Assembly (NCBI GenBank): GCA_963855995.1
Contig: OY979719.1
Location: 16,401,312 to 16,465,311 of the forward strand
Direction: 5' to 3'
Origin: Muricea muricata
Lineage: Eukaryota; Cnidaria; Anthozoa; Malacalcyonacea; Plexauridae
DNA: 64,000 bases
In this document: in pieces, positions 1,987-59,879 of the stretch
How positions within the stretch are numbered: the stretch's first letter is position 1
Layout: every line of letters starts with the position of its first letter
Notes under the pieces: generated by a model
What the model was told of the DNA's origin: nothing
The model's database searches: none
The model's input: only the letters and a program-made list of their open reading frames with translations
Translations under genes and position numbers: made by a program

Positions 1987-3358
1987 CAAGTAAAACCATT
2001 GTTTCTTTAAAGTGTGCATCAATTTTTGTCAAGCTGTTGAAAATTTTGTTTAACATGAGTCCTATGAACATGAAATGATTATTTTTGTGCGAGATAATAT
2101 TTTGTGTGAAATTACCGCTCAAATTTCACGAGTGTTGAAAAGTCGAATGATCAAGCCTCAAAACCAACCTAAACATAGTTCAATATTCGTGCAGATTTGT
2201 ATCTATCATTTTGTACACAATATTAAATGCAATTGCGCCAACACTGTTTCTACTATAAACCACATGTTTCTAGTGTATATTATTGTATGATGTTCTGGTT
2301 ATCATAGCTTTAATTATGGCTTAAAATGTCACGTAATCATGGTTGTGTTGGAGTACCAGCGCGCTAATAGACCTGCTTTGACTGTTAGCCTTTTTTCATT
2401 TGCTGTATTTGTCCATCCAAGTTTTTTGCGTAATGTTAACGACATGGGGGATCGTATTGTACTAGGTATACTCACGAGCGGATGATGATACAAAACGGAA
2501 TACGCGTGTTGTTTTATAACACTTGTACGACTTCATTTCGCATTGACTTTGCGTTGGTGTACATGTGATGGGCGCGCAAACTATATCAAGTTATTCATGA
2601 ATTTAATTCACGAATTTCTGTTCTTAGTCGAATTAGTGTTCTTAATCCATTATCAAAATCGCACCATTCTTGAAATCGTTCAAAAGAGGAGCATTAAAAT
2701 ACAAACATACAAACTTACCGCGCAGCTTCACACTTCCCGATGCTACAAGAAGCGCCAGTATAGCCAGGCCACAAGCCAAACCGCTCAACAGCAGCGTGAA
2801 GATCTGGATACAACTGGCGTGTTGTTTGCGAGTGCTATCATTTTTGTATGAATGTTGGCTTGGTCTTCCGGATCTAGTATCGCGGATTCCTTCCCTTCGA
2901 AGCGTTTCTGGTGAATTCGTATCGTACACAATATTGTCGCTGAAACGCGAGTTTCTGAAACTCTCTTCATACAAGTGGCCTCGGTCTGCTTCGTCTTCCC
3001 GCCCGTGATTGTCGTAGGCAAAGTACGCTTGTGACAAACGTGGTACGACATTCTCCGTATTACTAACGTACGAATAACCAGTTGGTAAAGTATCATCGTA
3101 CGCTCTTTCGTAAATATCGTTAGTTTTAGCACGACCTCCTTTGGAGTCGTTCGATTCTCGTCTTTGAGTCGTATTAGCGTCTCTTTCTACACCCAGACAC
3201 AGGGGTGATTCATAAACTGGTTCATGGTTTGGATTTGAGTAAAGATTCCGACCATTCGTTTCGCTCAAGATATCTGTACATTTCGGTACACTCGGGACGT
3301 CTTCTATATCGAGTTCGTACGTTTTGCCCAAATTAATCGTGACATTTTTGCCCGACAT
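1987..3358 (-). CDS. Paralog A: type II single-pass membrane protein, 5' part only
   Basis: First exon 2719-3358 starts at an ATG at 3358 and codes about 213 residues. Residues 1-182 form a hydrophilic tail with 12 tyrosines (14, 40, 49, 83, 87, 95, 97, 112, 115, 130, 145, 171). A basic stretch (SYKNDSTRKQH) precedes one hydrophobic helix at about 183-207, which predicts a cytoplasmic N terminus. The exon ends in phase 1 at a GTAAGT donor (2718). A second exon, 1987-2061, follows a TTCATAG acceptor, keeps the frame and codes an amphipathic segment (NKIFNSLTKIDAHFKETM). It ends either at GTAATT after 1987 or ten bases earlier at ATG|GTTTTA, which would give the phase-0 junction seen in the sister genes. 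The 3' exons, including the cysteine module expected from the paralogs, are not visible and probably lie beyond the left edge. Function is unknown; the tail could bind SH2 or PTB proteins if phosphorylated. Confidence 0.72.
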
Positions 3359-3486
3359 CGTTTTTAATATGTGTAAATTGTGAATGGAAGCTTAATTTGG
3401 TGTTTTACACTACGAATAAATGTCGCCCGTCGACTGCCCTCATGAACGGTTCTCGTCGTTTGAACAGATACCGTATGTGCTTTTCA

Positions 3487-3538
3487 TTTTATACCAAACG
3501 TCAATGGCATTTCCTGTTTCGCTGTGAGTGGTGACTCA
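3487..3538 (-). promoter_or_regulatory. Paralog A core promoter: TATA box and AP-1 site
   Basis: On the minus strand TATAAAA lies at 3487-3493, about 130 bp before the ATG at 3358. A consensus AP-1 site (TGAGTCA) lies at 3532-3538, 40 bp further upstream. AP-1 sites are common in stress- and immune-responsive promoters; activity here is an inference. Confidence 0.45.
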
Positions 3539-3916
3539 GTACAAAAGTTTAGTCAAAGATCAGACCATATATATACGTAAATATATGATCAAATTGAAGC
3601 TATTAAAAAATTCAAAACTTTAGGCAAAAAAGAAATGCTTAAAAAATACGAAAACAACTGCAATTTTGCAGAATACAGCAAATTTCCCTTCAAACTTTAA
3701 GTTGGTTTCTTTTTGCCTGAAGTCTCGAAATTTTTACACCAAATACAACTTTTTAATAGCTTTCATTTGATATGCGGCACAATTTTTGACGTTCAGTGTT
3801 TCAACTAAAAACTCAGAAAAACTAAATCAAATTGGCTTCAACTTCCCCCCTGACTTACGTTGAAGTTTACCTATAGTTCAATCACTTCAATGCCGTACTC
3901 AGGGCCTCCTCGTACC

Positions 3917-3962
3917 CAGGGCCTTTCTGGGCTTGGCTCGCGGGATTTGGAAAGGCCCTGGC
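3917..3962. repeat. Short inverted repeat, MITE-like
   Basis: CCCAGGGCCTTTC and its near-complement GAAAGGCCCTGG flank a 20-bp spacer. This is a hairpin typical of very small MITE remnants. Confidence 0.4.
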
Positions 3963-4853
3963 CATATCAATATGAGAAACGAAACCGCTTGGTTGATTTA
4001 CAACACACTCGATAACGGATTCATGCTCTAAGCAGGTTTTCTTCGTGCGGCTAGTATATTTTTGTACACGAGTGAGGAGTATTTTGCCAAAAACTTTGCG
4101 TAAATTGCTACAATTTTGAATAAATATCGGAGGGGGGGGGGGGGTAAAATCGCTCTATTGATAATTTAATATAAATTTTAAAATGCAGGCCATCGGAAAG
4201 TTGAGATAAGACCCCCTTCTACCCTAGAAGGATTGGCGATTTGTGTATATGTATGCAAGCAGAATTAAATACAGGGTTAAAAACTAGTTAGATGGTCCGT
4301 CATTTTTTCCACGCAGGAAAGTCTAGAATTTCGCGTTTAGACTTTAGTCTTCGCCGGAAATTATCGTTCACTGAAGTTTGGACTCTGACCTTGTGATTCA
4401 TTCCTCGTCACGGTTCCAGTTAGTCACATCGGCAGATGTGTGCTTGGTTCGTGTGATTTTGAGGTCGTGCAGCTGTTTCAGAAGGATACACGTTTTCTCA
4501 GAATTCGTTTCCTAGACATACTCAAAGCACTGGTGTACTCATGTTCAATCAAGTTCACAACTTTAGGTTTTTTCCAAAGCGTAGGGAAGACTTCTTTTTG
4601 GTACTCCGGCTTTCGCGAGTAGCAACATTAGCTAGCATGTAAACTGAGTTGTGCAGAGATTAACGTTTTTCCTCGGAATGAGCAGGATGTCATGAAACGA
4701 ATATGCAGACAAGGGTTTGAGTTATGACATTTTATTACCTAATTAGGTTACTTAGTTAGAATATAATAATTTATACAAATTTACATTTAAAAATATTGTT
4801 CTTCAGTATTCTACGATTAAACACGAAGGATTCTGTCTTAAGTCAGTGTTATG

Positions 4854-5244
4854 CAGGGGCGTAGCCAGGGCCCTGACTTTGGGGGGGGGGGGGCGAGCTC
4901 ATTTAAGGGGTGTCGGGCGACATCCCCACCGAGGAAATTTAACATTCTATATAGGGTTTCTGAAATTCAGAAAAATAAGGGTTCCCCATTCTGGAAGTTT
5001 GGGCAAGAAGAATTTACGAGACCATCAAGTTGATAGAAAATGGAAATGACTTTTTTAGTAATTCAAAGTATATAAATTAAATCAGATGTTTTTTCCTCTT
5101 TTTTTGGTAAACTGGTTTTCTTTCACTATCAGATAATCCCCCCAACAATTTTCTACCCGGATTTCAACGTTTTGAAAAAATGGTTTCTCGGATGATTGGG
5201 GGGGCGACCGCCCCCCCCCTTTCCCCCCCTTGGCTACGCCCCTG
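4854..5244. mobile_element. hAT-type MITE, 391 bp
   Basis: Termini CAGGGGCGTAGCCA and TGGCTACGCCCCTG are flanked by an exact 8-bp duplication GTGTTATG (4846-4853 and 5245-5252). It contains G14 and C9 homopolymers. Confidence 0.88.
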
Positions 5245-5865
5245 GTGTTATGGATCGCGTGTGCTTCTTACAATGCATATATTTACAATTTGCATAATAA
5301 TTATTTTTGTCATTTCGATAATAGCGACGCCATCGTGGATTTAATTTTGATTATTCCTGCCAATTTAGAGCGTTTAAAAGCTGCAGTAATAATTATTAGA
5401 CCAGGCTTACGCAATCGTGGCAAAAAATTATTGTGCACAGCGGTGTACGTAGTTACTGGGAAATAAATGCTTCCCGAGGTCATACCCCTGCAAACAACAA
5501 TTGTTGGCTACCATTTTGATGCTGGAAAAGGCCAAGGTCTATTTTATTATGTACGAACATCCTTCAAACTCACTAAATTGTCGAAACAATTGATTCGAAC
5601 CATGCTATGCTTCATGTTTAGGTGAAGCTCAAGATGGCCAAAATTTACGTTCAACAACCTAAACAGTTTTAATACCGTGTTCTAAAACCGTAACGTTACT
5701 TTTTAAATCGATAGTAGCAACTGCGCAGAAAAAACAATTGAAGGGGGCTGGTACTTAAATGCCAATATGATTTCAAAATGGCGGCCAAGTTATCGGTTGT
5801 TCTTTCATGTGATGATAACAAATATTCCGTTCTTTGCCGCAGTTCCAAAATCGTAATGAAATTAA

Positions 5866-6257
5866 GGTGGCTCGATGGTCAGAATTCATTAGAAATTTTG
5901 TCTCTACGATTAAATGTTTTGTCGTGAATGCTTGAGCTTCATTTTAGTTCATTGCACAGCTCTATAGCACTGTTTGCTGTATTTAAAAAAGAATTTCTTA
6001 AAAGTTTGCATGAACATAGAAATCACGTTTCTTGTTGGAACTCGTTTCTAATTATAAGTTGATTTGCATAAACTCCACACCTTACCTATGACAACAATGT
6101 CTCTGGACATACGAACGGTAGGAGTATAAAACTTTTCCAATTATGAAGACAACCAGCAGAGCTATGCAATGAACTAAACTAAGCTTTACACGCGCTCTGT
6201 AAAAGATTCTATGGCGAAAGAAGTATTATGTGCTATGAGTTAGACTATCGAGCCACC
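5866..6257. mobile_element. TTAA-flanked MITE, 392 bp
   Basis: Termini GGTGGCTCGATGGTC and GACTATCGAGCCACC are inverted repeats flanked by TTAA at 5862-5865 and 6258-6261, as for piggyBac-type insertion. Confidence 0.75.
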
Positions 6258-6416
6258 TTAAAGGCGGTACATTCGTGACTCGTAAAATAAAAGAATAATG
6301 AAGTTATCGTTCCAGTCTAACATATAAAGTTCACTAGCACGGTACACACTATCTATAGGTTTGTATCTGTAGGTTCTGATCTATCGTGACTCGTAACCAA
6401 GTTATCGTTCTTGTAC

Positions 6417-6983
6417 AGGGTGCACAAAAAAAAGGTAATCGAACTTTGATGTGCTCTAGGGCGTTGAATATTTAACATACAGAAATAATTCTTTCGTAGT
6501 TGGAAAGACCAGGCTTTTAGCTTTTATTTGCCATCATTTTTATAAAATTTGAAGAAAAATCAAGCAAATACAAATGCGATAAAAATTGCAGGTCGAAATC
6601 GCATTTTTTCACCGTTGGGAGTTTATTGAAAGTCTGTTGAAATTTAATGCCATTAGGGGATTAAATTACAAAATTAATCGACCATTTTAGCTTAGGTAGT
6701 AAACTTCTGGCATTTTATTTGTGATGTTAATTGTTTCTCGTGACAGATAAATGATTAATGAAATTTTCTTTTCTTATTCGTTGCCCTAATAAATAGTGGA
6801 AATATGCGATTTCGACCGGCTATTTTCATTTGATTCGTATTTGCCCAATCTTTCTTCAAATTTCACAAAAATGATGACAATCGAAAGCTAAAATGATTGC
6901 GAAAGAATGATTTCTGTAGATTGTATAATGAACGCGCTAGAGCACTGCAAAGTTCGATTACCTTTTTTTTGATACACCGTGTA
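6417..6983. mobile_element. Long imperfect-palindrome MITE
   Basis: Left GGTAATCGAACTTTGATGTG and right CACTGCAAAGTTCGATTACC, with flanking A/T runs, open arms that stay similar for more than 120 bp. No coding frame is present. Confidence 0.7.
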
Positions 6984-7137
6984 TAGAGCTCACTGATATG
7001 AAGGCGTTAGTAAGAAAATTGCTTAGAAAATTGCTAATGACTGCTTAGATATACGAATTATATTTTTCCATTTTTATAACACTGGAAATATAGTTCGTAT
7101 CTTCAAACGGTTACGCGATTATAATAATTCAACACTT

Positions 7138-7341
7138 TCACGTGAGGGCTGGACATTCCCAATAAATTATAACGCACTTCATTATCTGGTCCCCGTTTTC
7201 GTCAGTGCGCAGTCGAAATCCCGCATATGTCGATTGTCCAGCACATGTACATGTGTATTTGTTGCCACTTCGTGACAAAACAGTGTGTATTGTTCCATAA
7301 CCTTCTACCGTAGAACAAACGGCGGAGATAACCTTCCAGCC
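7138..7341 (-). CDS. Paralog B terminal exon with Cys module
   Basis: The final exon begins after TCTTTTCAG and codes 67 residues plus TGA. Cysteines fall as one near the start (SAVCSTV), a C-x-C pair (YTCTC), then CVIIYWEC four residues before the end. The same spacing of the last two cysteines (six residues, with Tyr at +4) is found in paralogs C, D and E. Confidence 0.82.
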   Translation of the reverse strand, partial: GWKVISAVCSTVEGYGTIHTVLSRSGNKYTCTCAGQSTYAGFRLRTDENGDQIMKCVIIYWECPALT

Positions 7342-10300
7342 CTGAAAAGATTGGAACACTTTTTAGATACAGATGAATTAATAATTTTCCATTACGGTTC
7401 CTTTCTTCAGATAGATGGCTCTAAGATAGACTGGAGTTTACGAGGGTTTTTTGATTGATATGCATTATGCAAATGTTATCACATTTGTTATTACCATGCC
7501 AAGGTTACTGGATAATGATTGGTTGTACGAAAGCTGGATAGTGCTATCCACCGGATGGTGATTTTTTTCAACTGCCGCAAAAGGGCATAAAAACAGTGAC
7601 ACGAAGAATATTGACCTCACAAGAGATATAAAGTGACTTCAACTTGAAAATGATGAACTTTAATATAACTTTTACAAGTTACCGAAAATAGTTAGAAAGT
7701 TGCAAAAAAATCACTATCCGGTGGATTGCGCTATTCAACTTTCGTACAACCGACCCCAGTACAATTATTTCATTAATTACACAGCAGTACAATTAGTGAT
7801 TTCAAAACTAACAAAATGGCGGAAAGATCACTTGTACTAATCATTAATTATTCTCCTTGTGTATAATAATTTATAGTTATTTATATTATAGCAATACTAT
7901 CATTATAAAGCTTTTTTTTAATTATGCCGTTTTAAAGATAGGTATCCATGCATAATTCGATACTTTTGTTATGATCGCTCTATACGTACCGCTCTTTGTT
8001 CATAAGAAACTATGACTTCGTCTACATTTGCGAACCTCACTTTTGTCTGCCGTGTCTCCTGGTCGACAATGCATGCAGACAGGTTGCCAACACCAGCGTC
8101 TCCTTGCGCACCTGGCAAGCCTTGAGTTCCATTGAAACCACGTGGGCCTTGAGTTCCATTGAAACCACGTGGACCTATTTCTTTGCTTATATTCCTTAAC
8201 TGATAGAAAATAATATTTCAATACTTCATCTTTCTTCATTTCTGCATGCATTGCGAGTAGCTGCCAATAAACCTGGAGCTTAATTTGTTGTTTCTGTTGG
8301 GCATTAAACGTCTTTGTGTGGTTTTGTTCAGTGATGAATATTGGCCTGCAAGCTTAATACATGTTTGTTTGAGGAAAGTTTGTGTGGAGGGAAGGTTTAT
8401 AAAACCCCTAACTCTTTTACACCTATACTCGCGCGTTTTGTAAGTGAAAAACATTACAACGTCACAAATAATTTAATGTTCAGTATTAAGTTATTAGTTA
8501 ACTCCCCGGCTCAAAGAAGTTTATAACTATAGCGTGGCTCATATGTTAAAACTGCTAAGTACACAGCCAAAAACAAACAACCTGTTCGGCCTGATAAAAC
8601 TGAACAGGCTTGAACAATGTCTTGCTATACCAACATTGTTCAATGTTGTCAACAATATTGTTCAGCTTTGTCACACCTGAATTAGCCTGCAATCAGGTGT
8701 AAAAATGTTGAACAACATTGCTGACAACCTTGAACAATGTGGGCAGCAAAACATTGTTCAATGCTGTTTTCATCAGGCCAGAACAGGCTGTTCGTTTTTT
8801 GCTGTGTATAACAGATGTGTGCGGTCAAATATGCTATATATATACATTAACTTTCGTGAGAGACCCATAACGTCGTTTAGCAATACATTGAAATACAGGA
8901 ATAGAGAAACAGAAAAGGAATTAATAGTTCTTATTCAAATATAAATTGTATCATTCCAATTCCGTAGAAATTGAGGCTAAATATGACTCGAAACCTGAAT
9001 GTATCTGTTTGATTCTGTATCTCGAAATAACGTTGTCAGTGTCGGTAGTCATGCAGTTGCAGTGAGTCTGCTATAAGTGGGGCCACTTAGACAACATTAG
9101 TAAACATATGATCCACCACAATTGTTGATATAAGAAGAATATATATACGGAAGCATAAGATACGGAAGCATGTCGTGTAAAGGCTGAGCAAAGGCTGTGT
9201 ATCTGTGTATGATGATTACAGTTTACGATTATAGCTCCCTCGTTGACTTTTTCAAATTTCATGCTTATTATTAGTATGTTTATTGTGAAATCGACATTGT
9301 TTTTCTGCTATGCTGATTGGTCAACGTGCTATTTTGAGCGATTTTTGCATATTTAGCCTCAATTTGTCATATACGGAACTTAGAGTTGTACAATTTATAT
9401 TTGGTGGATGTGAATATATCAAGCACAGCGATCATCCGTGTTCATAACCAGGGTTGCCAGATCACTGCATTTTTGAGGCCAAATCTTCAACAATGCTCTT
9501 TGTTTTTCTTTGTACTTGGCTTTTGTTTTGCTTGTTTACTTGACTACACTAATGACGATTTGGCCTCAAAAATGCAGTGATCTGGCAACCCTGTTCATAA
9601 CGAATGGTCTTCGCTCTTGGTTTTATCGTTTCTGTAATGCTGTCTCATAAATGGTTTTGTGTACGTCATCTAATGCGAAAGAGCGGGTCAGCGATGACCC
9701 CCCCCCCCCCCCGTGAGAGATTAGTGTAATTGAATGTAAATAATTTTAAGTAATTGTCTGATTTAAGCAAAGGTAAAGACAGTAAGGCAAGGAAACAAAT
9801 CAGTACCTTTGTGCTGAGCGTTGAGTTAATGTTTTGAATCGTATTGTTCAGTTCTTGATTTATGGTTTTCATTGTTTCTTTTGTCCTGGTAAGCTTCATT
9901 TGTTGAAAGAAAAAAAAACAATTATGAGAAGAAGAAACCGTGGAAGAGAAATCTAACAAAGTGCATGATAAAGTTAAATTAACAAGACTGGTATACTGGT
10001 ATTATATAACTCCTGGTCAAATCCATTTACGCACATACGCGCAAGTTGTAACAAACCTGCAAGCAAGTGGTAACAAGTCATTTGACAAGTTGTTTTCGCA
10101 ATGGACCATCCCCCTTTTAGACAAACTTTTGAATTATGAATATTCATTAGCACAGCTGGAAAGAGCATCCTAAATTTAGAAAAGTGGTAAAATTTGGTGG
10201 CAAAATAGTATAAAATATGGAAAGTATAGTCCTGTGAAGTTTGCGAATTTTGAATATATTTCTATTATGCGCGGAAAATCACATTTCGAAATGTGATTGG

Positions 10301-13300
10301 ACTTTTCCACGCATAATACAAATTTTAAGTATACAAAATTCGCAAACTTCACAGTGCTATTTCTTCGACATTTTACAACATTTTGCCACCAGACTTCGCC
10401 ATTTTACTAAATTTAGGATGCTCTTTCTAGCTGTGCTAATGAATATTCATAATTCTAAAGTTTGTCAAAAAGGAGAATGGTCATTTTTGTTCCAAGTGGT
10501 TGAAACAAGTTTCAAAAAACCTGCATATTGACAAGTGCAAACATGCTCGATAGGACTATATCAGATTTCTGGTAGAGTTGTTTTGACAACAATGATACAA
10601 TGTGTCAATGTATACTTTACTTCAGTCGTTATGTAATTATCGTCAACATATAGTTAATTTCATCAATGGGGAACAAAAGCTTCTCGACTTTTGTCGGTTG
10701 GTAATTAAAAAGAAAGACTCATAAAGGAGTAAACGTCTAGAAGACGTCGTCATGGTGGGCGCCGAAGCGGAGAAAAGAATAGCCGGAACCATTGACAATA
10801 TATGTTGTCACCGTTTATTCATTTTATTCAATTCACAATGGATTCGAAAAGAATAAACAAGTATTGCTATATTGATTATAGATTCGGGTTTTTTGAGACA
10901 GTCTGTAGGTCGTCAGAAAGTGAATTTCCAGAGTAAGATCCTTTCATTTTCTATGCCCCATTTGTTTATCTGTTATTTTCGTTGTATCAAGGATATAAAA
11001 TACGTAGTATCGATTCGGTTTTGAGTGGTTTTGTGGAAGATACTACCACGCAATTTTGGTCCTACGTGTAAAACGATTAGCAGCGGCTCAGTAGCTCAAC
11101 TTTAGTATAAGCTTTATAGCGGCGAAACGTGTTCTTGCCTGACGAAGGAAGGGTAAAAATTTATGGTGTGTGATGACATCCATCCCTAAATTTTTGAACC
11201 CCCCCCCCCCAGTTGTTACCCCCTCGATCTGTCCCCGAAAATTACTTTATGTATCACCAGTTCAGATGATGTGTCAGTTTGAAAAGCATAAACTAAGAAA
11301 TGTGTTGACTACCACTACCCGCCACCACCGCTTCCTTAATTAATCTATCTTTTAGCCAATCGGGTTTGTTGCATCCACCCGATTAACCAATTAGAATACT
11401 TGCAAGTCTGGAAATGGCAACGGTAGTTGAAGTCAAATCTGAACCTCGCTATTAACATACCTCTATCTTCTGAATCATTTGGTCCGATTGAAGAGAGCTC
11501 AATGCAGCATTCAACATATCAAGCTGATCAGAAACTTTCTTAATGTCTTGAGTTAACTTATTTTGAACCTCGGCTATTTCAGCTGTGTAATTTCTTTCTT
11601 CTAAATGGAACATAGTTGATAGGAAATAATTCAGTCAATATGCCTCCTTCAGGCGAGCACATGAAACTCAACATTCGGGTTCCTGCTATTGTATTTTCCT
11701 ACAACTGAACCAATGTCAATGTTTTGGCGTATTTATATAACTTCATGCATGTGTTATTTAAGCTATACAAGTCACTTGAAAAGGCCTGTTTTTGTATCTG
11801 CGAAACCAGATATATTGATATCTTCTGCGATCCGTGCTGTTAGCTTGTAGCCAAATGTTAGTCAGAGCTTTCGCTCGTCTGACAGATCTGATCTTTCAAT
11901 TTCGAAAAGTAAACATCGCTTAAGCAAGCACAGCCAAGGCGACTTAAAAGAAGACTATGCTTGAGGACACGACAGACCTGTCATTTAGTTACTTAAATCC
12001 TAGCAAATGATGTGTTTAAAATTGAATATGTGTTTTCATCGTCAGTTACCGAAATATTTCACAGCTCCTTTTGTCGCCTATTTTTTCCTGCTAGTACATA
12101 ATCAGTTATATTCAAACTAATGCATGTTTGTTCAATTGTTCATGACTAGTTGTTTTGTAAACAGCTAATTCAAAACACAACATCCTGTGCAAAACCTTGA
12201 CATTCATTTTCATAACAATATCCTTTGCAAACCCTTAAAACATATTGGAAGCACCGTTTGTGAGCTCATGAGAAATTAATCATTTATGGGGGTCATTTCT
12301 TAGAAACATAGTAACTATCATTCACAAATCAGAGTTGCAAAAAAGCCACGGGTATGCGGGTATTACCCGTGAGGAAGGTTTGCAAAATGGGCAGTCAGTG
12401 AGGAAGGTTTCATGTCAACACACTACATAATGTATCCTAAACACTAAACTAACAAAAAAATAATAGATGATGATCCATTCCAGAAAACATGCCTTCTTTC
12501 CAAAAAAAATAGTGATTCATTTGCAAGACTAATTCTGATCTTCAGTTTGTAAAGCCCAACTTTACAACATTTTGAGGAAGGTTTGCAACCTTAGAAAATT
12601 TTGCCCGGAGGAAGTTTGAACGCTTTTTGCAACTCTGTCACAAATACTTGCAATATTCAGCTAGGAAGCTTGAAACTTGTGCTCCTATTACGCTTTTTGC
12701 GCTTAGAGTTTAAGGTTTGCAAAGAAAGCACAACTTTTTTTATAGTTGGCTGGCTAATGATCGATGATAAAAAAAGCTTCGCCTGGCCGAAAAATCCCGC
12801 GAGTCTTGCTGCCAAATGTTTCAACTGCCTACATTATATTGAGTGGACGTGTTGCTAGGTAAAACAAGTGCCTTCTCATTTCTGTGGGTGGAAGACAAAG
12901 ACGTTTGGGCGCAAGAAATTCGAAATGTCTAGGTGGGGTAATTTTAGTAAGTATTATTCTGCATGCATTGTCATTGTATTATTATTTTCGTAGCAACCTG
13001 ATAGAATTATTCACCGATGGCTTTCAGGTATCAAATTAGAGGAAATGATAAAAAAATGGCATCCATGTTTGTAATTTTAAAGTTGGATGAGTTTTCAGAT
13101 TGATATAGTATTTCTGAATCTGCACTATAATATACCTTTAATTGATTGTCCGATGCAATAAATTAGAGTATACGGTTTGGTTTACAATTGTCATGGCATG
13201 CAGAAAGTACTCTGCCACACGTACGTAGTTATAGAATAGATCTAACCAGGAAAACGAACTTATAAAAGAAAATGAATATATTGTTCTATAACTATTTAAA

Positions 13301-16107
13301 AACTATTTAGTAAAAAATGTAAGAAACATTAACATGTAGTTTTTTTAAAACTCGAGACGTGTTTTACTTTAGATATATTAATATTAAATTGTGTGTACAT
13401 AAATATATTTTTTATATTTCATTTTACCCGCAATGCCTGACACACGTTCCCATTAAATCCTAAGGTAAGAAAGTAAATTTGGTGCTAAATTGTTTAGTAA
13501 TTCACATTAATGCAAAATATTGACGCTTAAGTGGAATATTTTACTCTGCCATGTTTATCACTATTCATCACCACACCCTCGCCCATCGAAATCGTGCAAC
13601 TGCAAGTTCTTTTTGTGAGTTGAAACAGTGGGATATATTGATGCTGTTGAACCGGAACTGCGATAAGCTTGCTATAGCACTTGTAAGTTTGTTTATAATT
13701 CTCTCTATGAGACACGAGACGAAGTAATTTATCGAAAAATAAAAAGTATCTTTTACAATGTAAGATAACATTGATTTTCGCTTTCATGTTGTCAATTAAT
13801 TACTAACTTAGTGTAAGAGGTAAATAAGACGAGTTCCAGCGAGGGGAAATATAAAAAACATCCACTGATGTGTATTTTTAGCCTGGGCGGCCCGACCATC
13901 GAGTATTTTCTTCAAATACTTTGGCCTACGTCATTGCGATAACGCTAAAGCAAACATTCGGCTTATTGCTCAAACAAATTAACTTATTTAACTTGTGATA
14001 TATATCGAGATAAAACATATTTCAATTAGAAAATCGTGCATTGCGGCTAATTCGCTCAGGAACATCCTGTTCTTAGCGTGAGAGATATGCAATGCCTGAA
14101 TGATCGCTTTAATAAAGTCGTCAGTGGCAACTTGCAAATCTGTTAAGTAATATGTTTTGTATTATTGACAGTAGATCTAAACTTATCGGTTGCTTCAATG
14201 GCGCGACTGTTTCACTTAGAATATGCCACTTTCAGTTTCACTTAACTATTGATTTTGAAGACCGATTAGCACTTCTCAATTCAGCAAATTATCTTATATC
14301 ATTTCCATACAAGCATTGTTAATGCTATTTCTGTCATCATATTTACGAAGGTGTTCAAAAAAACAGGTTTCCCTTCAGTGTTTTTTTAGGAATTTTAGCA
14401 ATATTTAACAAAGTCTTTCGGCGAAAACCCGAAATTTTGCCATGCGAATTGAACTAAATAAGTGACAGAGAGGAGTGTACAGTCGATATGCTGGAGTAAC
14501 ATCGATAATGAGTGTAGCGAGATTTCCTCTCCCTGGTACCATGTTTAGAAGAAGTATTAACTATATACAAGAGTGTAATTTCTTTTTGGTTCTAAAGGGG
14601 TTTATTGATCTGTATTTTGTGTCCATTGAAAGTTAGACCTATAACAATAAAGGGATTAAAGAGGCTTAAAGCCATGTAGCGAGCATAATATCTTGTAATG
14701 CCACTGGTTCAGTCATTAGTCTATGTTTAGATTTACAATTCCTTATAAATGATCTTTTAGAACGACTGCATATTGAGGTAGCCAGATTTTAACATAAGGA
14801 TATCTTTGCGTTCCAACGAACCGCTGGTTAAATATTTTACTGGGAACAAGTACATCTTCTCACGAAATGGCATCAATTTATCAATGACCTTATAGTTGTA
14901 AATTTGCTTGGTTAATTAAAATATTTTAAATACTATCTTGTGTCTCACGCACATATGTCCAACTAACACAAAAGAACTTGTGCGATACATTATTGTTATC
15001 AAATGAACTAGAATTTGTGATCATGTCTTTTATTGTTACTTATTCTTACTCAATCAATATATTAGTAACATAATAAACATGAATGGAGCCATACAATTCT
15101 TCCTCGTAATTACCATTCAAATATCTCGCAACTATTCATGAGTTGACTAACGAAGTTAAGATATTAATTTATCAACATGCCATGATCGACAGATAACATA
15201 TGATCGACAATTCAATTATCGAATCCTAGGGTTCCATTTCGTCCACGACCAAATTTCATGCATATTTTGTCGATAAGTGCTCAAGAGGCTGAATGTGTAT
15301 AAAGTAATTCGTCTACGTTAGTAAAGACATTAACTTGGAATCTTGAATCAAGTGAACATTGACTTCACTTCAGTGAAGACCTTGACTTAACTGTATTAAA
15401 GACATTGAACCGACTCAATTGAAGACATTAACTTGACTGTAGTGAAGACATTGACTTCAGTCCAGTAAAGACATTGAATTGATTAAAGAGATTGATTTGA
15501 CCCAAACGACGCTGTTTTATATATAATTTCACCCACCTTTGTCATTGATTTGTTGCAACGGTTGCGGCGAAGAATTAGTACATGAACATTTTTCCTCCCT
15601 GAAATAAGCCAACACTCCCAGAGCTGCACCGACGAGGCAGATCACGAACAGTATACACAATATTATAAAAGGTAATCTCCATCTTGTGTCATTCTTTGAA
15701 ATGCCACCCCAGTCCTCTGCTGGTCGTGGAGGAATATTCAAAGCTCGAATTCTAGGAGGTTCCGATTGCTTCTCGCTCTTTGGTTGCTTCTCGCTCTTTG
15801 GTTTCTTCTTGTACCCAGCAGCTTCGTAGACAACGTTCTCCTTTTTTCGTCGGCCCGTGCCCTCCAATCCTGCTTTCTTTACCACCTCAGAAGTGTCCTC
15901 GTAATGAGGATTCACTTCAACAAAATGTTCTGGTTGAAAGCCACCGTTCTCCATCGGTTTCCCGAGATTTCTTTCCGATTCACTGCCACCGAATGTACTA
16001 AAAGTTAAATCGTCTGTGCTGATAGCGTATGGATTAAACGCTAAATTGGCGTAATCTGTCATGTTGCTGTCGTCCGACCCCGATTTCTTTTCTGTAGCCG
16101 AAGTCAT
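7138..16107 (-). CDS. Paralog B: type II membrane protein with coiled coil, collagen-like segment and C-terminal Cys module
   Basis: Five exons join in frame to 403 aa: 15537-16107, 11461-11600, 9807-9893, 7990-8199 and 7138-7341. Exon 1 (ATG at 16107) codes a 144-residue tail with YANL at 19-22, NPHY at 66-69 (an NPxY-type PTB/endocytosis motif), Y94, Y99, a KSEKQ repeat and a proline-rich patch. The transmembrane helix is at about 145-169, followed by a CSC pair. Exons 2 and 3 are amphipathic and Asn/Gln-rich, coiled-coil-like. Exon 4 holds about ten Gly-X-Y triplets, with GPRGFNGTQ coded twice in tandem. Exon 5 holds the cysteine module ending C-x3-Y-x2-C (CVIIYWEC) and the stop. Phases are 1 after exon 1, then 0. 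Acceptor TTTTCAG and donors GTGGGT, GTATGT, GTACTG and GTACGT are visible; exon 3 has a weak acceptor (AATGAAG). More mini-exons may be missed. Family unknown; a trimeric surface receptor is inferred. Confidence 0.8.
7519..7757. mobile_element. MITE family 1, copy 1 (intron 4 of paralog B)
   Basis: Termini GGTTGTACGAAAG and CTTTCGTACAACCGACCCC, with internal CCACCGGAT and ATCCGGTGG blocks. A second copy in inverse orientation lies at 52820-53071. Confidence 0.75.
7990..8199 (-). CDS. Paralog B collagen-like exon
   Basis: This 210-bp phase-0 exon lies between TTTTCTATCAG and a GTACGT donor. It codes LRNISKEI, then Gly-X-Y triplets GPR GFN GTQ (twice), GLP GAQ GDA, then a short tail containing one Cys (NLSACIVDQ). 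The same opening, (G)PRG[FY]NG[ST]QG, occurs in the paralog E exon at 39740-39931, which supports common descent. NGT inside the triplets is an N-glycosylation sequon. Confidence 0.82.
8560..8808. mobile_element. MITE family 2, full copy
   Basis: Termini TACACAGCCAAAAACAAACA and GTTCGTTTTTTGCTGTGTA are imperfect inverted repeats with TA at both ends. The interior repeats GAACAATGT/ACATTGTTC. It lies in intron 3 of paralog B. Confidence 0.75.
9449..9593. mobile_element. hAT-type MITE, 145 bp
   Basis: It opens with CAGGGTTGCCAGATCACTGC and ends with the exact complement; about 37 bp of each end match without error. The 8-bp duplication TTCATAAC is intact (9441-9448 and 9594-9601), so insertion looks recent. 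Confidence 0.92.
10102..10480. mobile_element. Foldback MITE family 3, copy 1
   Basis: Inverted arms include AATATTCATTAGCACAGCTG / AGCTGTGCTAATGAATATTC, AGAGCATCCTAAATTTAG and its complement, and GGTGGCAAAAT / ATTTTGCCACC, around a central hairpin (ATTATGCGCGGAAAA / TTTTCCACGCATAAT). A second copy is at 32542-32885. Confidence 0.8.
11601..15536 (-). other. Intron 1 of paralog B
   Basis: About 3.9 kb with no exon that I can support. It contains a C10 tract just upstream at 11,202, the tandem repeat at 15,318-15,505, and otherwise unremarkable AT-rich sequence. Confidence 0.5.
15318..15505. repeat. Degenerate ~30-bp tandem repeat in intron 1 of paralog B
   Basis: Variants of AGTGAAGACATTGACTT recur six or more times next to the exon 1 donor (15536). 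Confidence 0.65.
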
Positions 16108-18974: not shown

Positions 18975-30244
<11,270 letters not shown>

Positions 30245-31405: not shown

Positions 31406-31570
31406 TCATCGCATACATTCCCAATAATAAGCGACACAGTCAGTTTCTTTAGTAATCTTGTTCTTGCAATAGCAGGTGTGCTCTTCTTGTGTGCCACTTG
31501 GTGCCATGTATGTTACGTCTGCTGTATGTTTCAACGAAGTCGAACACGTGACTGCAACCGTGACACGATC
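31406..31570 (-). CDS. Paralog D terminal exon with Cys module
   Basis: After TTGTTACAG, 54 codons are open to TGA. The cysteines are TVAVTC, HTCYC and CVAYYWEC, with two residues after the last Cys. The first strand (VTVAVTC) and the last (AYYWEC) alternate hydrophobic residues, suggesting a small beta domain held by disulfides. Confidence 0.8.
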   Translation of the reverse strand, partial: DRVTVAVTCSTSLKHTADVTYMAPSGTQEEHTCYCKNKITKETDCVAYYWECMR

Positions 31571-37500: not shown

Positions 37501-38002
37501 AAATCGCATACACATGCAACAGCACAATGCTCCCGTAATCCCTACAGTATTGAATGTCTGATATATGTTGCGAGACAGTTAACTGTAAACTGTGGTGACT
37601 CGAAGTCATATTAAAAATTCGTTCTAAAGTGCCGGCAAACTACTGACCTTTTGCTTTACTATAATAATCACTAGAGGAGCAGTGACAATCATGTCGTCGG
37701 AGCACCAAGTACCAAACGGCACAACTCGCTGCCATGGAAAGAATCGCTAGTACAACGAGAGTCGAGAGGAATGTATTGCTGTTGTAAAAATACTTATTTT
37801 TGATAGGTGATTGTTCCGAACTTGAAGCTCGTTGATGTCTCATAGCATTTGCTTGTAGGCATGACCGCATATCGTTTTCTACAGCTTCGTCTTGAACATT
37901 TGCTTGAATAGCGTTGTGATTCCCTTTTCGTTTATCGTTCGCGGTAAAATTCCCGGCAAAGGTTTGATTTGGTACAGGTCTATCATTCTCTTCAACTGGC
38001 AT
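31406..38002 (-). CDS. Paralog D: type II membrane protein with short stalk exons and C-terminal Cys module
   Basis: Six exons join in frame to 266 aa: 37648-38002, 35417-35505, 33258-33302, 33076-33123, 32021-32119 and 31406-31570. Exon 1 (ATG at 38002) codes a 75-residue Asn-rich tail with no tyrosine before residue 71, then a helix at about 76-101 and an external CHC pair (106, 108), comparable to the CSC of paralog B. It ends in phase 1 at GTCAGT. Exon 2 (acceptor ATGTAG, donor GTTAGT) is amphipathic (VMHNMKEKLQRDILDLKNKM). Exons 3 and 4 are only 45 and 48 bp but have good splice sites (CTTTTTCAG/GTAAGT and TTTTTAG/GTAATA). Exon 5 has one Cys and an NGT sequon. Exon 6 carries the Cys module (HTCYC ... 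CVAYYWEC) and the stop. No Gly-X-Y repeat was found. The introns hold at least five transposons. Confidence 0.8.
31640..31880. mobile_element. Inverted-repeat element in the last intron of paralog D
   Basis: AGGGACCGCGGAGCGG at the left and CCGCTCCGCGATCCCT at the right, with inner ATTGGTGGGGC repeated in direct orientation. ACAGT flanks both ends. Confidence 0.55.
32275..32477. mobile_element. hAT-type MITE, 203 bp
   Basis: Termini CAGTGGCGAACCTAG and CTGGATCCGCCACTG, with AGTCAAAATAAATTA inside both arms. An exact 8-bp duplication ATCCCAAA flanks it (32267-32274 and 32478-32485). Confidence 0.9.
32542..32885. mobile_element. Foldback MITE family 3, copy 2
   Basis: Arms AGAACAAAATCTTTTACTAC / GTAGCAAAAGATTTCGTTCT continue into TTAAGAT, GGTGGCGAAATGTTGTAAAA and a central GGAAAAAGTTA / TAACTTTTTCC hairpin. 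The order of blocks matches copy 1 at 10102-10480. Confidence 0.75.
34097..34825. mobile_element. hAT-type MITE, 729 bp
   Basis: It begins CAGGGCCTTTTTTTAAC and ends TTAAAAAAGGCTCTG, with flanking 8-bp duplication AGGTAAAT (34089-34096 and 34826-34833). G/C homopolymer tracts sit near both ends. A related terminus (TTAAAAAAGACCCTG) is at about 46,868-46,882. Confidence 0.82.
36320..37175. mobile_element. ACTTGTTACAAG-type MITE (family 4) with a nested MITE
   Basis: The outer element is made of degenerate ACTTGTTACAAGT units (36340-36380 and 36885-37160), with CAAAAATTTTACAACTTG at one end and CTCGTTTTTACGCGCG at the other. It is split by a second inverted-repeat element at about 36,385-36,883 (CACAGGGAAATTTTGCAA / TTGCAAAATTTCCCTGTG; AATGGGAAATTGTATA in both arms). 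It lies in intron 1 of paralog D. Confidence 0.7.
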
Positions 38003-38504
38003 TTTTGTTGAATCAATTCAGTCCGCTTTGCGTTTAGTCTACATTGCGCGTATCTAATTTCGGATCGATGTGCCGCACATCACGTGCGCAAAATTGGTCA
38101 ATTAGCTAATCCTTATGATGTCAGCACTGCATAGCTCTATTTATGTTGTCAGAAATGTTTCGATTTTTTAATTTAATGTAACCAATGTCAACACTGATCT
38201 GTTTTCATATAAACGGCTTTGAAAGTAAACCCATGCAGGGTGTTTCAGTCTTCGTAAACTGAAACGTTGCCAGTGTAAAGGCAGCTAGTGGCGTGCAGTC
38301 TTTCTACATCTGACTGTAGCTATATAAAGACAGTTGTTTCACTACCCTACTCGTCTCTATTACTCGACGTTCCGGTATCGGCCTTTCGTCGGCATTCTTT
38401 CTCAACATTAATATTGATCAGTTATAGTTATCAGTAATCATTCTTATTCTTATCAGTATATAATATGATATTAATCATAGTATTTATGATTATTCTTAGT
38501 ATAA

Positions 38505-38620
38505 TAGTAATAATAATAATTATATAATTATACTTTTTTGTAACAATAATTGTTACTAGTAGTACAATTATTTGTAATTATAATTTTTACAATTGTATAA
38601 TTACTAGTATATTATATATA
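38505..38620. repeat. AT-rich dispersed repeat, copy 1
   Basis: Contains TGTAACAATAATTGTTACTA and TATAATTACTAGTATA. The same blocks recur in order at about 40190-40310. Confidence 0.6.
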
Positions 38621-38621
38621 A

Positions 38622-38722
38622 CTTCTGAAGATGACTTAAAAGTAAAGTCGAAACGTTAAAAGGAAAAATGTTTACCATTTTCGGAGTGTCTATTGTTTTG
38701 TGTTTTATTAAAATACTCTATG
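38622..38722 (+). repeat. CTGAAGATGAC...GTCGAAACG repeat, single copy
   Basis: CTGAAGATGACTT, a short loop, then AAGTCGAAACGTT, followed by TCGGAGTGTCTATTGTTTTG and TTTATTAAAATACTC. The same string of blocks appears in the inverted pairs at 54050-54515. It resembles the ends of Penelope-like or similar retroelements. Confidence 0.6.
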
Positions 38723-39428
38723 ACAACTTAATTAGTGCTGCTACTTTTAAACGACCTTAATGCCCTATTTTTCCCTCTTTGAACATTCAAAGACTACAAA
38801 ATGAAATTAAACACTTTATTTTCAATGTTTTGCCAATGACTCGCGTGCAATTTGCACTATAGGAAAACTCGATAAATCGCCATTTTTCCCCATATTTTAT
38901 AGAAATGTTTAAGGTATACAACTATACATCGAGATTTAAGTTAGACATTAATTCGTTCAAAAAACTTTAAGTTTACAAATTAAATAGCTTCTTTAGCTTC
39001 TTAATTACAACAAGTGAGGGGGATGGGGCGTTTTTTGCGTCACCTGGTGCATCACTCTGTTCATCCACTGTAACAATTCCGTGTTCTTTTTACACTATAT
39101 GCACATATTTGCTGTTGTTGTTCTTTCCGTATAGTTAGTGAGCATCCATACATAGGAGCTGATCTCGTTTGTGCTTTGCGTTTTTGGCACTTGTTCAGTG
39201 TTGTTATCGAGCCATGCATGTTATACCAGTCAACCTATGGAAGAAGTCATCAGTACAAAATTCACGATAATTATCTACGTCAAAAAATCACAGTTTATCG
39301 AAGTTTATGTAAATTAAAGTAAAACTTTATGGTTTTGTGATATTCTTTATGTTTTACTCATTAATCATGAATGTGATTAAATAAAGAAATATGAGTTTTT
39401 TGAACAAACAGCTTGGACGTCAAGCATG

Positions 39429-39593
39429 TCATATTGATATCAAGGAACATCGCGTGTATTTCAGAATACATTTGTAATCATTCATTGTTCCAGGTTTGTG
39501 CATGCATCTACAGATGTAGGAATTTCCTTCTTCTGTTAATTTCGCTTCTCCATTAGCATCAGCTTCGCATTTCAGGTTCAAATATAACTCACT
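39429..39593 (-). CDS. Paralog E terminal exon with Cys module
   Basis: After TTTTTACAG, 54 codons are open to TGA. The pattern LNLKC ... SYICRC ... YKCILKYTRC has the same C-x-C and C-x3-Y-x2-C spacing as paralogs B, C and D, but threonine replaces the tryptophan after the conserved tyrosine. Confidence 0.82.
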   Translation of the reverse strand, partial: SELYLNLKCEADANGEAKLTEEGNSYICRCMHKPGTMNDYKCILKYTRCSLISI

Positions 39594-42500
39594 CTGTAAA
39601 AATAAAACACAAGTAGCTAATGTATCATCCAGTGAACTGTATATACCGTCTGGAGTAAAACCTCATCAGTGCAACGATTGAAGTAGGTGTTTTCCTGTAT
39701 GTGCTAAGTATGCAACTGAATAACACATAATGTACATACCTTACTTCGTAATGGTTTTCTAAATTCCGCCAACCCCTGGCCAACCTTAATCAGCTTTGTT
39801 TGCGTGTGGTTTCGACAGCCCTGAACTGTCATCCCTGGTTCTCCTTGTTTTCCTTGGGTCCCTTGCGGTCCAGGTGGTCCGGCTATACCTTGGCTTCCAT
39901 TATATCCGCGCGGTCCCCTCATTGTACTAAGCTAAAAATTATAATTATTCATCAATTCTATGCACTCTCATGACGACTGAATGTGATATTATCTTATCAA
40001 TGCATTTGTAGTGTAGAATTATTCAAAGCTGTCGTTGGTTGCAGTTTACCTTTACCCAAAAAGAAAAATTCATTTTTTCAACTTCTTGCATATTTCTCTG
40101 CAACTGATACAGTGAACTCGAATAAGTTTAACATTTAAATTATATGTTAGAATATAGATCAATCTGGTGTAACTGGTGAGAATATTGTATAATAGTAATA
40201 ATAAGAATCATATAATTATACATTTTGTAACAATAATTAATACTGGTAGTACAATTATTAGCAATTATAATTATTATAATGGTATAATTACTAGTATACT
40301 ATAATAATATAATTATTAAACAAATTATAATCTTCATGATTAATTAAAATTTTAATTTATGCAGCGGAAAACCATAGGATTTTTCACTACCTAAACGATA
40401 CAAGCAGAATTATTCGAGCAAGCGTGTAAATAAGTTAAAACAACCAGCCCTCGTGGAATAAATCCTGGAAACAATACCATCTCAAATATTACTCACCATT
40501 GTGGTGGTATAATTTCTCGTTTCTGTCATCTCTTGGTTGGTTTTGTTGATAAACTAGAGATAAATACTATAATGAATCAATTACATAAATATATGACAAC
40601 CAACACCTGTCAACCTTATATTGACAAGTGCGACTATATGATTTACTTATTCCGCTTTCTCTTTGCCTTCTTCTTCTGTTTATATGTTTACTGTACCTTC
40701 TCAATGACATTGGAAAACTGGTCAATCTTTTGCAGCGAGTGCATCACATTTGTCGTCACGTTCTCTTTAAAATTGTTAAACTACGAAAACAGAGAAGAAC
40801 AAGCATAGGACATATAATTTTTGGTGTTTAATGGATATGAAGTAATATCAAAAGCACTGAAAAGTTTAATGAGTTTCTTGCACGCTTGCGTGGTGAATAT
40901 CAATCATTATAGTCTTGTGGAAACACCACAAGAAGCTAGCCGAAGATCCGAGCTTACGGATCAGAAGCCTTGCGATAGTACATTTACTCATCCACAAAAT
41001 TATAATTTAACTGAAATGCGCGTTAAAAAACAAGGGCTGGCAGTGTTTTATACACGTATTCTATGCGGTATCATTCCATGCAAACCTTGTTATAGAAAGT
41101 ATTTTGGAGTACATCCAGTCGTTCAAGTATTTCTGATATATTCTTCTTGGTTGATTTGTTCACTGTTTCCAACTGTAATACGAATTATACAGTTCTAAAT
41201 ATGCCAAGCTGTATATTAATACATGTACAATTAGATTGTTGTCGTGCATTGTGTCCCTACATACGAGAAACTGACATTGGTTGGCTTGAAACGCTATGTA
41301 TACGCGACTTCTACGCGTAATCGGCAGAGCATTGGGCTAGTAATCCGAAGGTCGTAAATTTGATTGCACCGTGATAAGACATATTACAAATATTATATTA
41401 CAAATATATTATTTATATTCACATGATTTATATTCATGTATTATACCTTCTCAATAGTTGCAAAACGTGAATTAACTTCTTTAGAAAAATTGGTCAGCTG
41501 TTTTTCAGTGTACGAATTTATCTAAAAAGTCATAAACCACTAATTAGTCAGTCTGATCAACAAATTGTTCAAATGTTATCAACTGGTATTTTAGTGTATA
41601 TAGTATACAGCTTGAGCTCGGAAGATGGTATTTTGTCCTAATGTGCTTACCTCTTCTCTTATTTGATTTATTTCTTTTTTCTGACGTTCAAAAGCTGCCT
41701 GCATTGATGCCTATGGTGTACAAAGTTGAGAAAACTTTTAAGTGAATTTAAACTGCACGAAATTTTAACAAGGAATCCTGAGAATCCTTAAGGCTTATCT
41801 GCACGATACGATTTGTCGCATACAATTCTTACTCTGGCGTATGGAAACGAGCGCTGATCGATGCCATGGCCAGATTTTTACTCGTTCGCTGAAAGACGAA
41901 ATTTGAGATCCAGGTTGAAATCTGACGTTTTTTACGCGTGCTCACTCGATCACATACACCAGAGTAAGAATCGTATGCGACTAATCGTATCGTGTAGTTA
42001 GGCCTTTGTATGATATCCTTAAAATGATTTTTGTTTGAAACGTTGAAATTATTGCTGAAGTATAATGATTACTACCACATGTTTGTGTTGAGTTCATTGC
42101 CATTCACAACATCAGATTCTCCGGGTTTCAGGACTCCCTGTTGGGGGTTTTAAAGGTATATAGTCACAGAAAATAGCCGCATTTCCGTACCTGGCATTTC
42201 ACTGCGTGTGTGTAAAGTGTAATCAACTGTTGTAGCTCGCTAAAACGATTACTATAACTGAATTGTTTATTTCCCATCAACTATTTTATTTTTATACTGC
42301 AATACGTTGTGTGGTTTACAAGTTTCCCTATAGTTTCGACTGTTCAGTTGTACGAAAAGTGTATCCAAATTTATATATCTAAACAGTCCTGGGGTTATAA
42401 TTATTTGAAATTATTGCATCGTCAAACGAGTCATATGCAACAGTTTTTATGCTATAGTGTGATAGCTATATAGTCATTACGCTGAACTTTAATCAGTTAT

Positions 42501-43782
42501 TCCATTTTTATTAATTGTTTTATAAACAATTTGAGGTCTGTCATGTGATCACACGTGTGATGTGGAATTTAAACCATATTAGGCTTTGCCGTCCACCCCT
42601 TAGGCCTCCGCCCCTTGCTGTTAGCCCACATCACACTTGCGACTTTTATTCAACCGATACTAACAAAGTAATTGAATTATCTGGCTCCTGAAGAGAGGGG
42701 GACTATCTCCATTTCCCAACACAATTTTTAACTCAATCCTATTGTCCATGTGCACACATTCTATAGTACATGTAGCTGTCTTTTCCAAATCTTAATCCCA
42801 CCCTTGTTTTCTGTTGAATTCCAGTCCCAGTGCATGGAATCCTGTTTTTCCGGAAAATTTTTTGGCAATTCCTGCTCCCATTTAACCCCTTCACGACCCT
42901 CACGATATTGATTATAATGTGGCATTTTAGATCAGCGTTTAAGCATAGCTTCTGGATTGTCTGTGGTTTAAGTAAACAGCTCACCAAGGTTTTGTTTGCA
43001 TTTCGCGAGTCGTTTGTCAATTCTTGTATCTTGTCTGCCAGTTCGGAATATTTGCCATCCTTCGTCTGTCCTATTTTATCAAACAAATGTAAAAGACGCA
43101 AATTGTTCGTTGCTAGTGCACTAATTATAGGTTCCCAACGACATTCTTCGCGGGAAACTATTGCTCATTGCACATGACTGATGATTGATCCCTTACAATT
43201 CTCCCATGTATGCTATTTTTGCTTTTGCTGTGAGTAAAGCTGATTTGTAGTCACTGGGAAAGCAGACTGAATTTAAAGAACTTAATTATTCATCCTGGTC
43301 GTCCGAACACCATTCCTGGAATTTTCTAATGGAAATCATAGGCGTAGGTTTTATTCCTTTTGGTGGACCTATACTTGATGAATTATTAGTTTTCTCAGAA
43401 TTTCTCACTTACCTAATAATTTATCAGATTCATACAAGGAGGTATTTGATCTCTGGAAGTTTTTTGGCTCGATATAGCCAAATATCAAAGCACAAACGAG
43501 AATCAACACCGTCATGGAGAGGATGCAGGATATAGCCAGAGCTATCTTCATTCCTCGCTGGCGGCTTGTTTTGATTCGTCGCTGTTTTAACGTTGAGTTG
43601 GCATTGTCAACAACATTGAGACCATTGGGTTTAGGTGAAACCCTGCCGTTGCCCAACTCACCGAAATAAACCGTCGAGGTTGCATTTTCAAATTTAATGA
43701 CTTCTTCTACTTCATAACCTTCATTGTTCGAGTTAAAGTCGACGAGGTTGTCAACATTTAGTGTAATCGGTATTGCTCGCAT
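39429..43782 (-). CDS. Paralog E: type II membrane protein with long multi-exon coiled coil, collagen-like segment and Cys module
   Basis: Nine exons join in frame to 391 aa: 43413-43782, 42985-43070, 41651-41710, 41447-41521, 41086-41172, 40697-40780, 40497-40553, 39740-39931 and 39429-39593. Exon 1 (ATG at 43782) codes a 78-residue acidic then basic tail with Y23 and Y39, a helix at about 79-104, an external NTS sequon and a phase-1 GTAAGT donor. Exons 2-7 are phase-0 mini-exons of 57-87 bp coding Lys/Glu/Asn-rich amphipathic helices with N-linked sequons (ENVT, RNYT). Exon 8 has nine Gly-X-Y triplets beginning GPR GYN GSQ, followed by one Cys. Exon 9 has the Cys module (YICRC ... CILKYTRC) and ends five codons later. 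Every junction shows AG/GT signals and the summed length (1,176 bp) is divisible by three. This is the best-supported model and the template for the family. Confidence 0.85.
39740..39931 (-). CDS. Paralog E collagen-like exon
   Basis: This 192-bp phase-0 exon lies between ATTTTTAG and GTATGT. It codes LSTM, then GPR GYN GSQ GIA GPP GPQ GTQ GKQ GEP, then a 35-residue tail with a single Cys (VQGCRNHT). Its layout parallels the paralog B exon at 7990-8199. Confidence 0.85.
40190..40310. repeat. AT-rich dispersed repeat, copy 2
   Basis: Matches 38505-38620 in the same orientation, including GTAACAATAATTAATACTGG and GTATAATTACTAGTATACT. It lies in intron 7 of paralog E. Confidence 0.6.
41316..41372 (+). 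repeat. tRNA-like fragment, probable SINE or tRNA pseudogene
   Basis: Contains TCGGCAGAGCATTGGGCTAG and TAATCCGAAGGTCGTAAATT, which read like the D-arm to anticodon-arm region of a tRNA with a decayed B box (AATTTGATTGCACC). The acceptor ends do not pair. Not a functional tRNA. Confidence 0.4.
41787..42006. mobile_element. MITE in intron 2 of paralog E
   Basis: Arms GCACGATACGATTTGTCGCA / TGCGACTAATCGTATCGTGT and AATTCTTACTCTGG / CCAGAGTAAGAATC are inverted repeats around about 100 bp. Confidence 0.78.
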
Positions 43783-59849: not shown

Positions 59850-59879
59850 ACAGGTTTTAATTTTTAGATATATATATAT

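Follow-up and report, generated by a model that had tools for sequence, protein, structure and literature searches.

The membrane-associated collagens XIII, XVII, XXIII and XXV are type II transmembrane (TM) proteins that carry collagen, and the Alr proteins of Hydractinia are type I proteins with Ig-like domains. Class A scavenger receptors, according to Whelan 2012 (PMC3567963), are type II proteins composed of an alpha-helical coiled coil, a collagenous region and a C-terminal domain. TLR, NLR, RLR and C-type lectins are the subjects of one survey of pattern-recognition receptors in cnidarians, whose available text makes no mention of stalked receptors of the kind described here. In the octocoral Muricea muricata, we analyzed a stretch of 64,000 nucleotides, termed the window (assembly GCA_963855995.1, contig OY979719.1; C4:16401312-16465311), together with its flanks, and found a tandem array of seven related genes, A to G, which probably encode a family of type II, putatively trimeric cell-surface receptors.

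Compared to the class A scavenger receptors (SR-AI, MARCO and SCARA3-5), the octocoral proteins share the same general plan of a type II anchor, a helical region and a C-terminal domain, with collagen in five of the seven. However, their tails of 79-185 residues exceed the ~30-55 residues of the scavenger receptors, two of the seven genes have no collagen exon that could be found, and the head is a six-cysteine module of their own in which Pfam finds neither SRCR nor C-type lectin. As the head is neither of these and the tails are longer, the genes are not assigned to this class. They differ from the membrane-associated collagens in the distinct head and in the short collagen, which has 9-13 Gly-X-Y triplets (GXY) in the octocoral proteins counted. 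Unlike Hydractinia Alr, they are computed to be type II and have no Ig-like Pfam domain. The architecture is familiar, the head and the tail modularity new.

The array extends over ~104 kb with all seven genes on the minus strand; coordinates are those of the window, with negative values to its left. Gene models were built by translating long open reading frames (ORFs), scoring splice sites and chaining the exons, for which strict splice thresholds gave almost nothing and looser ones were used instead. A preliminary description of the window had proposed five head-to-tail minus-strand genes, and ORF and splice-site scoring recovered all five first exons (A to E) at the places given there, each containing one hydrophobic helix followed by a strongest donor in phase 1 (5/5). 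The internal exons are in phase 0, as is the terminal exon of A to D. The gene count had to be raised to seven, since profile and first-exon scans revealed gene F (-25263 to -31172) and gene G (-46295 to -60712) left of the window. Altogether, the array represents a real and conserved anthozoan gene family.

This organization was compared with chance expectation over 344 kb of window and flanks. A scan of both strands for a Met followed by 25 or more residues, a TM helix and a donor scoring above 7 yielded 0, 7 and 0 loci in phases 0, 1 and 2 on the minus strand, compared to 2, 0 and 1 on the plus strand; these thresholds were chosen with A to E already known, and F and G came from an earlier version of the scan. 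Relaxing the score to above 5, in phase 1 only, gave a single weak plus-strand locus. A terminal-exon profile made from A to D and a Dendronephthya relative (P0001) revealed three further terminal exons in the flanks (E=4.4e-26, 1.5e-9 and 1.3e-8), all on the strand of A to D, after which the best flanking match fell to E=0.21; the best remaining match in the 344 kb had E=0.24, with the new exons by then included in the profile. Seven tail exons alternate one-to-one with seven heads on a single strand, and no further head was found in the 344 kb, which reach beyond G by ~79 kb on the left and beyond A by ~160 kb on the right. A G-like first-exon fragment lies 41 kb right of gene A (84744-84613, minus strand), with 44 residues 75% identical to the start of G; its frame soon closes and has no TM segment, and it is a duplicate fragment or pseudogene.

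In the 453-Mb assembly, a genome-wide search with the D head retrieved D, E, G and F at E<1e-5 and a place on C51 at E=2.5, but did not recover A, B or C, and with the A head only A itself was returned; such searches are thus insensitive. The Exaiptasia relative P0034 gave 166 genomic matches. Among the matches listed, most correspond to its collagen, and four extend 42-57 residues past residue 253 and so enter the beginning of the head, which starts at residue 254 (C1:75512447-75512770, C10:4724274-4724552, C1:121333632-121333961 and C1:70833924-70834247). Two of these four places on C1 and C10 contain stop codons. Given these places and the insensitivity of the searches, family members outside the array are possible.

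The head comprises ~100 residues and is predicted to be β-rich. Its six cysteines are invariant in all 13 aligned modules, which include Nematostella P0026 and Exaiptasia P0034, and are arranged with a C-x-C in the middle and a W-x-C near the end, where the tryptophan is present in 12 of 13 modules (A being the exception). In line with the preliminary description, the four genes A to D share this module within the window, and no family in the libraries searched covers it. Pfam scans of the 13 modules and seven relatives (P0001-P0004, P0026, P0029 and P0034) revealed no SRCR or C-type lectin, and an Ig-like, SRCR, C-type lectin or C1q head was set aside since none gave a significant family match. 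A profile search of the PDB with the head returned only two antibody light chains, neither significant (E=0.052 and 0.15). Lists from VIA-align hold no SRCR or C1q entry, which does not count against those folds. A tree of the 13 heads had no well-supported inner branch (0/10), and owing to this poor support only pairwise identities are used here. No paper describing these genes or this module surfaced by title or abstract in the literature searched.

AlphaFold prediction of the D relative P0001 gave a disordered tail, a TM helix (residues 143-170), a long helix (residues 191-268) and a β-domain (residues 329-426), which fits a stalk of coiled coil and collagen bearing a small cysteine head, as had been supposed. 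The corresponding head block of P0008 has a predicted local distance difference test score (pLDDT) of 73-96. The fold predicted for the head appears nearest to module 603-682 of the C-terminal domain of PCSK9. PCSK9 and resistin are secreted proteins and have no detectable sequence relation to the octocoral head. As described in PMC4474570, resistin places a coiled coil ahead of a cysteine-rich β-head, an order that the octocoral proteins share. The head might be homologous to this resistin-like cysteine-rich fold and form the same kind of trimeric cap, which is compatible with a receptor and which we hold as a serious but tentative possibility. The PDB profile matches include neither family, nor do the 11 Pfam families that matched at chance level (best E=0.014), although the HMMER filters limit the sensitivity of these searches.

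Each of the seven models has one TM segment and no second hydrophobic segment (for E, in exon 1 only). Of 12 proteins compared, 11 carry more lysine and arginine on the tail side, as do six of the seven within the array; for E, the comparison is limited by the seven residues that follow the TM segment in exon 1. The computed topology and the array together support the earlier view that the genes are paralogs which encode type II membrane proteins on a common exon plan. A CxC motif lies just outside the membrane in four of the seven genes, a coiled-coil region follows the TM segment, as seen in the P0001 helix and the coil exons of A, and collagen is present in five genes (A, D, E, F and G). 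Trimerization is plausible.

The tails fall into several types. Those of D, F and G are homologous, with identities of 29% between D and G and 50% between F and G; D and F gave no match at E 0.01 in a comparison of 13 tails and one of 0.008 in another, while P0001 does match F. The A tail and its Paramuricea counterpart, 40% identical, form a separate type, the E tail matches no other in the set of 13 at E 0.01, and the matches of B and C, to P0004 and G, are weak (E-values for 13 sequences). An alignment of fifteen G-type tails retains the residue of G in 78% of rows on average over positions 1-125; this set excludes F, P0005, P0012, P0020, P0025 and P0028 (F-type or partial) and includes P0007, which is 97% identical to G. 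Between species the tail is better kept than the head, at 65% vs 53% for D and 76% vs 60% for G (for A only the tail was measured), which fits a conserved intracellular job. Tyrosines number 12 in the E tail, six in G and five in D. A conserved phosphotyrosine signal was considered but found no support: five of the six G tail tyrosines are invariant in the 15 rows, but their flanking windows are not more conserved than the tail (p=0.28).

All exons of the models lie on the minus strand. Gene A starts with exon 1 (43413..43782), which encodes a 79-residue tail, the TM segment and the start of the ectodomain up to the phase-1 donor and is 40% identical to the Paramuricea clavata protein P0002. 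It is followed by exon 2 (42985..43070; phase 1 to 0, 56% to P0002), six phase-0 coil exons (41710-41651, 41521-41447, 41172-41086, 40780-40697, 40553-40497 and 40103-40050), four of which P0002 matches directly, a collagen exon (39740..39931) with 10 GXY and the first part of the head (66% to P0002), and the terminal cysteine-module exon (39429..39593). The collagen exon matches Pfam Collagen at E=3.9e-6 with 27.0 bits, slightly below the cut-off of 27.2. Altogether, P0002 matches seven of the ten modelled exons of A, and its model lacks the terminal exon. Gene D consists of exon 1 (15537..16107; 146-residue tail, TM segment, CSC motif and phase-1 donor, 64% to P0001), two coil exons (11461..11600, phase 1 to 0, which aligns to P0001 without a direct tblastn match, and 9807..9893, phase 0, 53%), a collagen exon (7990..8199) with 10 GXY and the first part of the head, and a terminal cysteine-module exon (7138..7341; 60%); P0001 matches four of the five. 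These are the two collagen exons that had been reported in the window.

Genes B and C have terminal cysteine-module exons identified by profile and cysteine alignment and internal exons placed by splice signals. Gene B comprises exon 1 (37648..38002; 80-residue tail, TM segment, CHC motif and phase-1 donor), four internal exons (35505-35417, 33302-33258, 33123-33076 and 32119-32021, the last bearing the first head cysteine), which have no full-length relative, and the terminal exon (31406..31570). Gene C comprises exon 1 (29854..30244; 97-residue tail, TM segment and phase-1 donor), three internal exons (22649-22531, 20620-20531 and 19395-19330) and the terminal exon (18975..19145). In the first intron of C sits a fold-back element (23264-27497) with 633-nt arms that are 99% complementary and a second arm pair of 483 nt at 98%; owing to this high complementarity it is probably a recent insertion. 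The proposed series of coiled-coil mini-exons thus holds for A, which has seven, and is shorter and less certain in B, C and D.

Exon 1 of gene E (2719..3358) encodes a 185-residue tail with its 12 tyrosines, the TM segment and the phase-1 donor, and its exons for collagen and head are situated beyond the left end of the window (-11533..-11727 and -12043..-12234). E is thus not truncated, as had been thought, but continues to -12234; its assumed exon at the left limit of 1987 was not confirmed, and a search for a second exon gave no good candidate. From order and phase, exon 1 of E appears to be joined to this ectodomain.

Three protein searches, with the D head (region 295-403), with A and with a profile of eight proteins (A2), revealed relatives in other anthozoans. 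The D head retrieved one protein, Dendronephthya gigantea LOC114522319 (P0001, E=1e-27), and A retrieved one, P0002 (E=1.8e-86). The A2 profile matched 164 proteins at E<=1, of which the best 120 of 164 were listed and 30 read; many weaker matches carry the Pfam collagen label alone and were taken as collagen matches. Besides the sea-anemone proteins described below, the accepted relatives include Dendronephthya LOC114522416 (P0003), which is 63% identical to G, Paramuricea P0008 and P0009, P0004 and about twenty shorter frames. The two Dendronephthya proteins and the Paramuricea hypothetical proteins, all uncharacterized, probably represent orthologs, or else close relatives, of D, G and A. 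The full-length matches of P0001 to D and P0003 to G, with the near full-length match of P0002 to A, bear out the joined exons. P0001/P0003, P0006/P0020 and P0007/P0012/P0023 seem to share genomes, which suggests, though it does not prove, conservation of the array in other octocorals.

Accepted sea-anemone relatives are the Nematostella 'cuticle collagen 3A3' isoforms P0026 and P0029 and the Exaiptasia 'Collagen-like protein 2' P0034, which have the same C-terminal module with all six cysteines. Like the octocoral proteins, the Nematostella isoforms possess a TM segment and CxC, whereas their collagen is longer, in runs of 25 and 5 GXY. P0034 differs in looking secreted, with a hydrophobic signal-peptide-like start, collagen and the six-cysteine head at the end. 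Both names appear to derive from the collagen stretch; because the family libraries searched do not recognize the domain, such proteins are filed merely as collagens or left uncharacterized.

The first exons appear to be exchangeable modules. The D and E heads are 70% identical, compared to 53% between D and its Dendronephthya relative, whereas the D and E tails have no match at E 0.01. At the nucleotide level, the two loci match only in the exons for coil, collagen and head and in one repeat, with synonymous divergence (dS) of 0.17-0.27 in the link and terminal exons. With close heads and unrelated tails, either a D-like ectodomain was combined with a different first exon to form E, or the ectodomains were homogenized by gene conversion; exon 1 of E presumably belongs to this ectodomain. 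In Nematostella, the predicted isoforms X1 and X2 share 252 C-terminal residues after unlike starts of 144 and 80 residues, each with a TM segment and CxC, which suggests alternative first exons. Equal exon phase makes such exchange of tail and ectodomain easy, by duplication or alternative first exons.

The ratio of non-synonymous to synonymous rates (dN/dS) between F and G is 0.41-0.45 for the exons of tail, link and head (the head value from NG86 alone). Between D and E it is 0.52-0.62 in the head, 0.69 in the coil (NG86 only) and 0.93 (NG86) or 1.37 (YN00) in the link exon; YN00 values were obtained for four of seven pairs. The 65 codons of the link are too few to claim positive selection. 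The pattern may be read as constraint, at most relaxed after a recent duplication.

From inside to outside, each protein would consist of a long cytosolic tail, a TM helix, CxC (in four of the seven), a coiled coil, a short collagen triple helix (in five) and the head. The tail would differ by sub-family, with one type for D, F and G, others for A and E, and B and C at most weakly similar to these. The CxC outside the membrane could staple the chains together, three heads on a rigid stalk would bind repeated low-affinity ligands, and the tail would convert clustering into signalling or uptake; the six-cysteine tip may thus be a sensing or sticking head. First exons in the same phase would be swapped by duplication and alternative promoters, giving one head several cytosolic outputs. 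The fuller proposal, in which surface receptors with a collagen stalk and modular tail/TM exons bear as their trimeric head a so far unnamed anthozoan domain akin in structure to the PCSK9/resistin cysteine-rich fold, is offered as speculative, and we doubt that it holds in every part.

Several observations weigh against the receptor model. B is an exception to the charge rule (two lysines and arginines on the tail side vs three), and N-glycosylation sequons occur in tails and ectodomains alike (C has 4 in 97 residues vs 3 in 160), so that sequons do not settle the topology. A collagen exon was looked for in B and in C and not found. The AlphaFold predictions are of monomers only, no signalling motif is apparent because the tail tyrosines have no specially conserved neighborhoods, and ligand binding by the head is no more than a candidate function. 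Since P0034 looks secreted, the head also works off the membrane. For B, C, F and G the exon chains, and for E the join, are based on splice signals, phase and module homology. The chains might accordingly be wrong and the tail exons parts of other genes, a reading to which the absent cDNA, the missing second exon of E and the long introns of C lend something; set against the strict single-strand alternation of seven tail exons with seven heads, and against the relatives that cover the D and G types in full length and A nearly so, it is highly improbable.

The secreted look of P0034, together with the collagen in five of seven genes, would also fit membrane-anchored matrix or adhesion collagens that tether epithelia to the mesoglea or are shed, with the head serving in trimerization or matrix assembly rather than in ligand sensing. 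A Nematostella matrisome study (PMC12549020) reports short, broadly expressed collagen-like proteins 'without additional domain motifs', among which the 3A3 gene might be. This reading is rather unlikely, as the collagen is just 9-13 GXY in the octocoral proteins counted and was not found in B and C, and long tails conserved between species suggest an intracellular role. The preliminary description had favored a rapidly diverging immune or self-recognition locus, to which a tandem array of membrane proteins, the recent D/E duplication with its link exon ratio and the unlike tails of A, B, C and E would correspond. That view is not supported: tails and heads are kept between octocorals, the family extends to sea anemones, and the F/G and D/E terminal-exon ratios stay well below one. 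An allorecognition or rapidly evolving immune locus is therefore improbable, and a role in immunity or self-recognition is possible but lacks support. We thus favor the receptor family.

Neighboring sequence contains further genes and remnants, all on the minus strand. Upstream of gene A, an OPA3 exon lies at 47157-47573 (Pfam PF07047, E=6.3e-24). A reverse-transcriptase remnant is located at 45332-45897, with RVT_1 in 45332-45604 (E=2.5e-8) and a frame at 45604-45897 without a Pfam match. A TRAF-like gene at 53744-54863 has a TRAF2/3/5 RING match in 54597-54863 (E=8e-10) and a cysteine-rich frame (53744-54118) that resembles a TRAF zinc finger by eye, without a Pfam match; its position beside a receptor array is possibly of interest. 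A helix-turn-helix frame at 59574-59882 (HTH_23, E=0.0024, below the cut-off) is perhaps a transposase remnant.

If the model is correct, it names an extracellular domain that is common to octocorals and sea anemones and unrecognized by the libraries searched, and that is possibly an early relative of the resistin/PCSK9 fold. Its small size would allow the head to be expressed and tested directly. The genes would further provide a compact case of exon modularity, in which one ectodomain is coupled to different cytosolic tails, and a candidate class of coral surface sensors beside TLRs and lectins.

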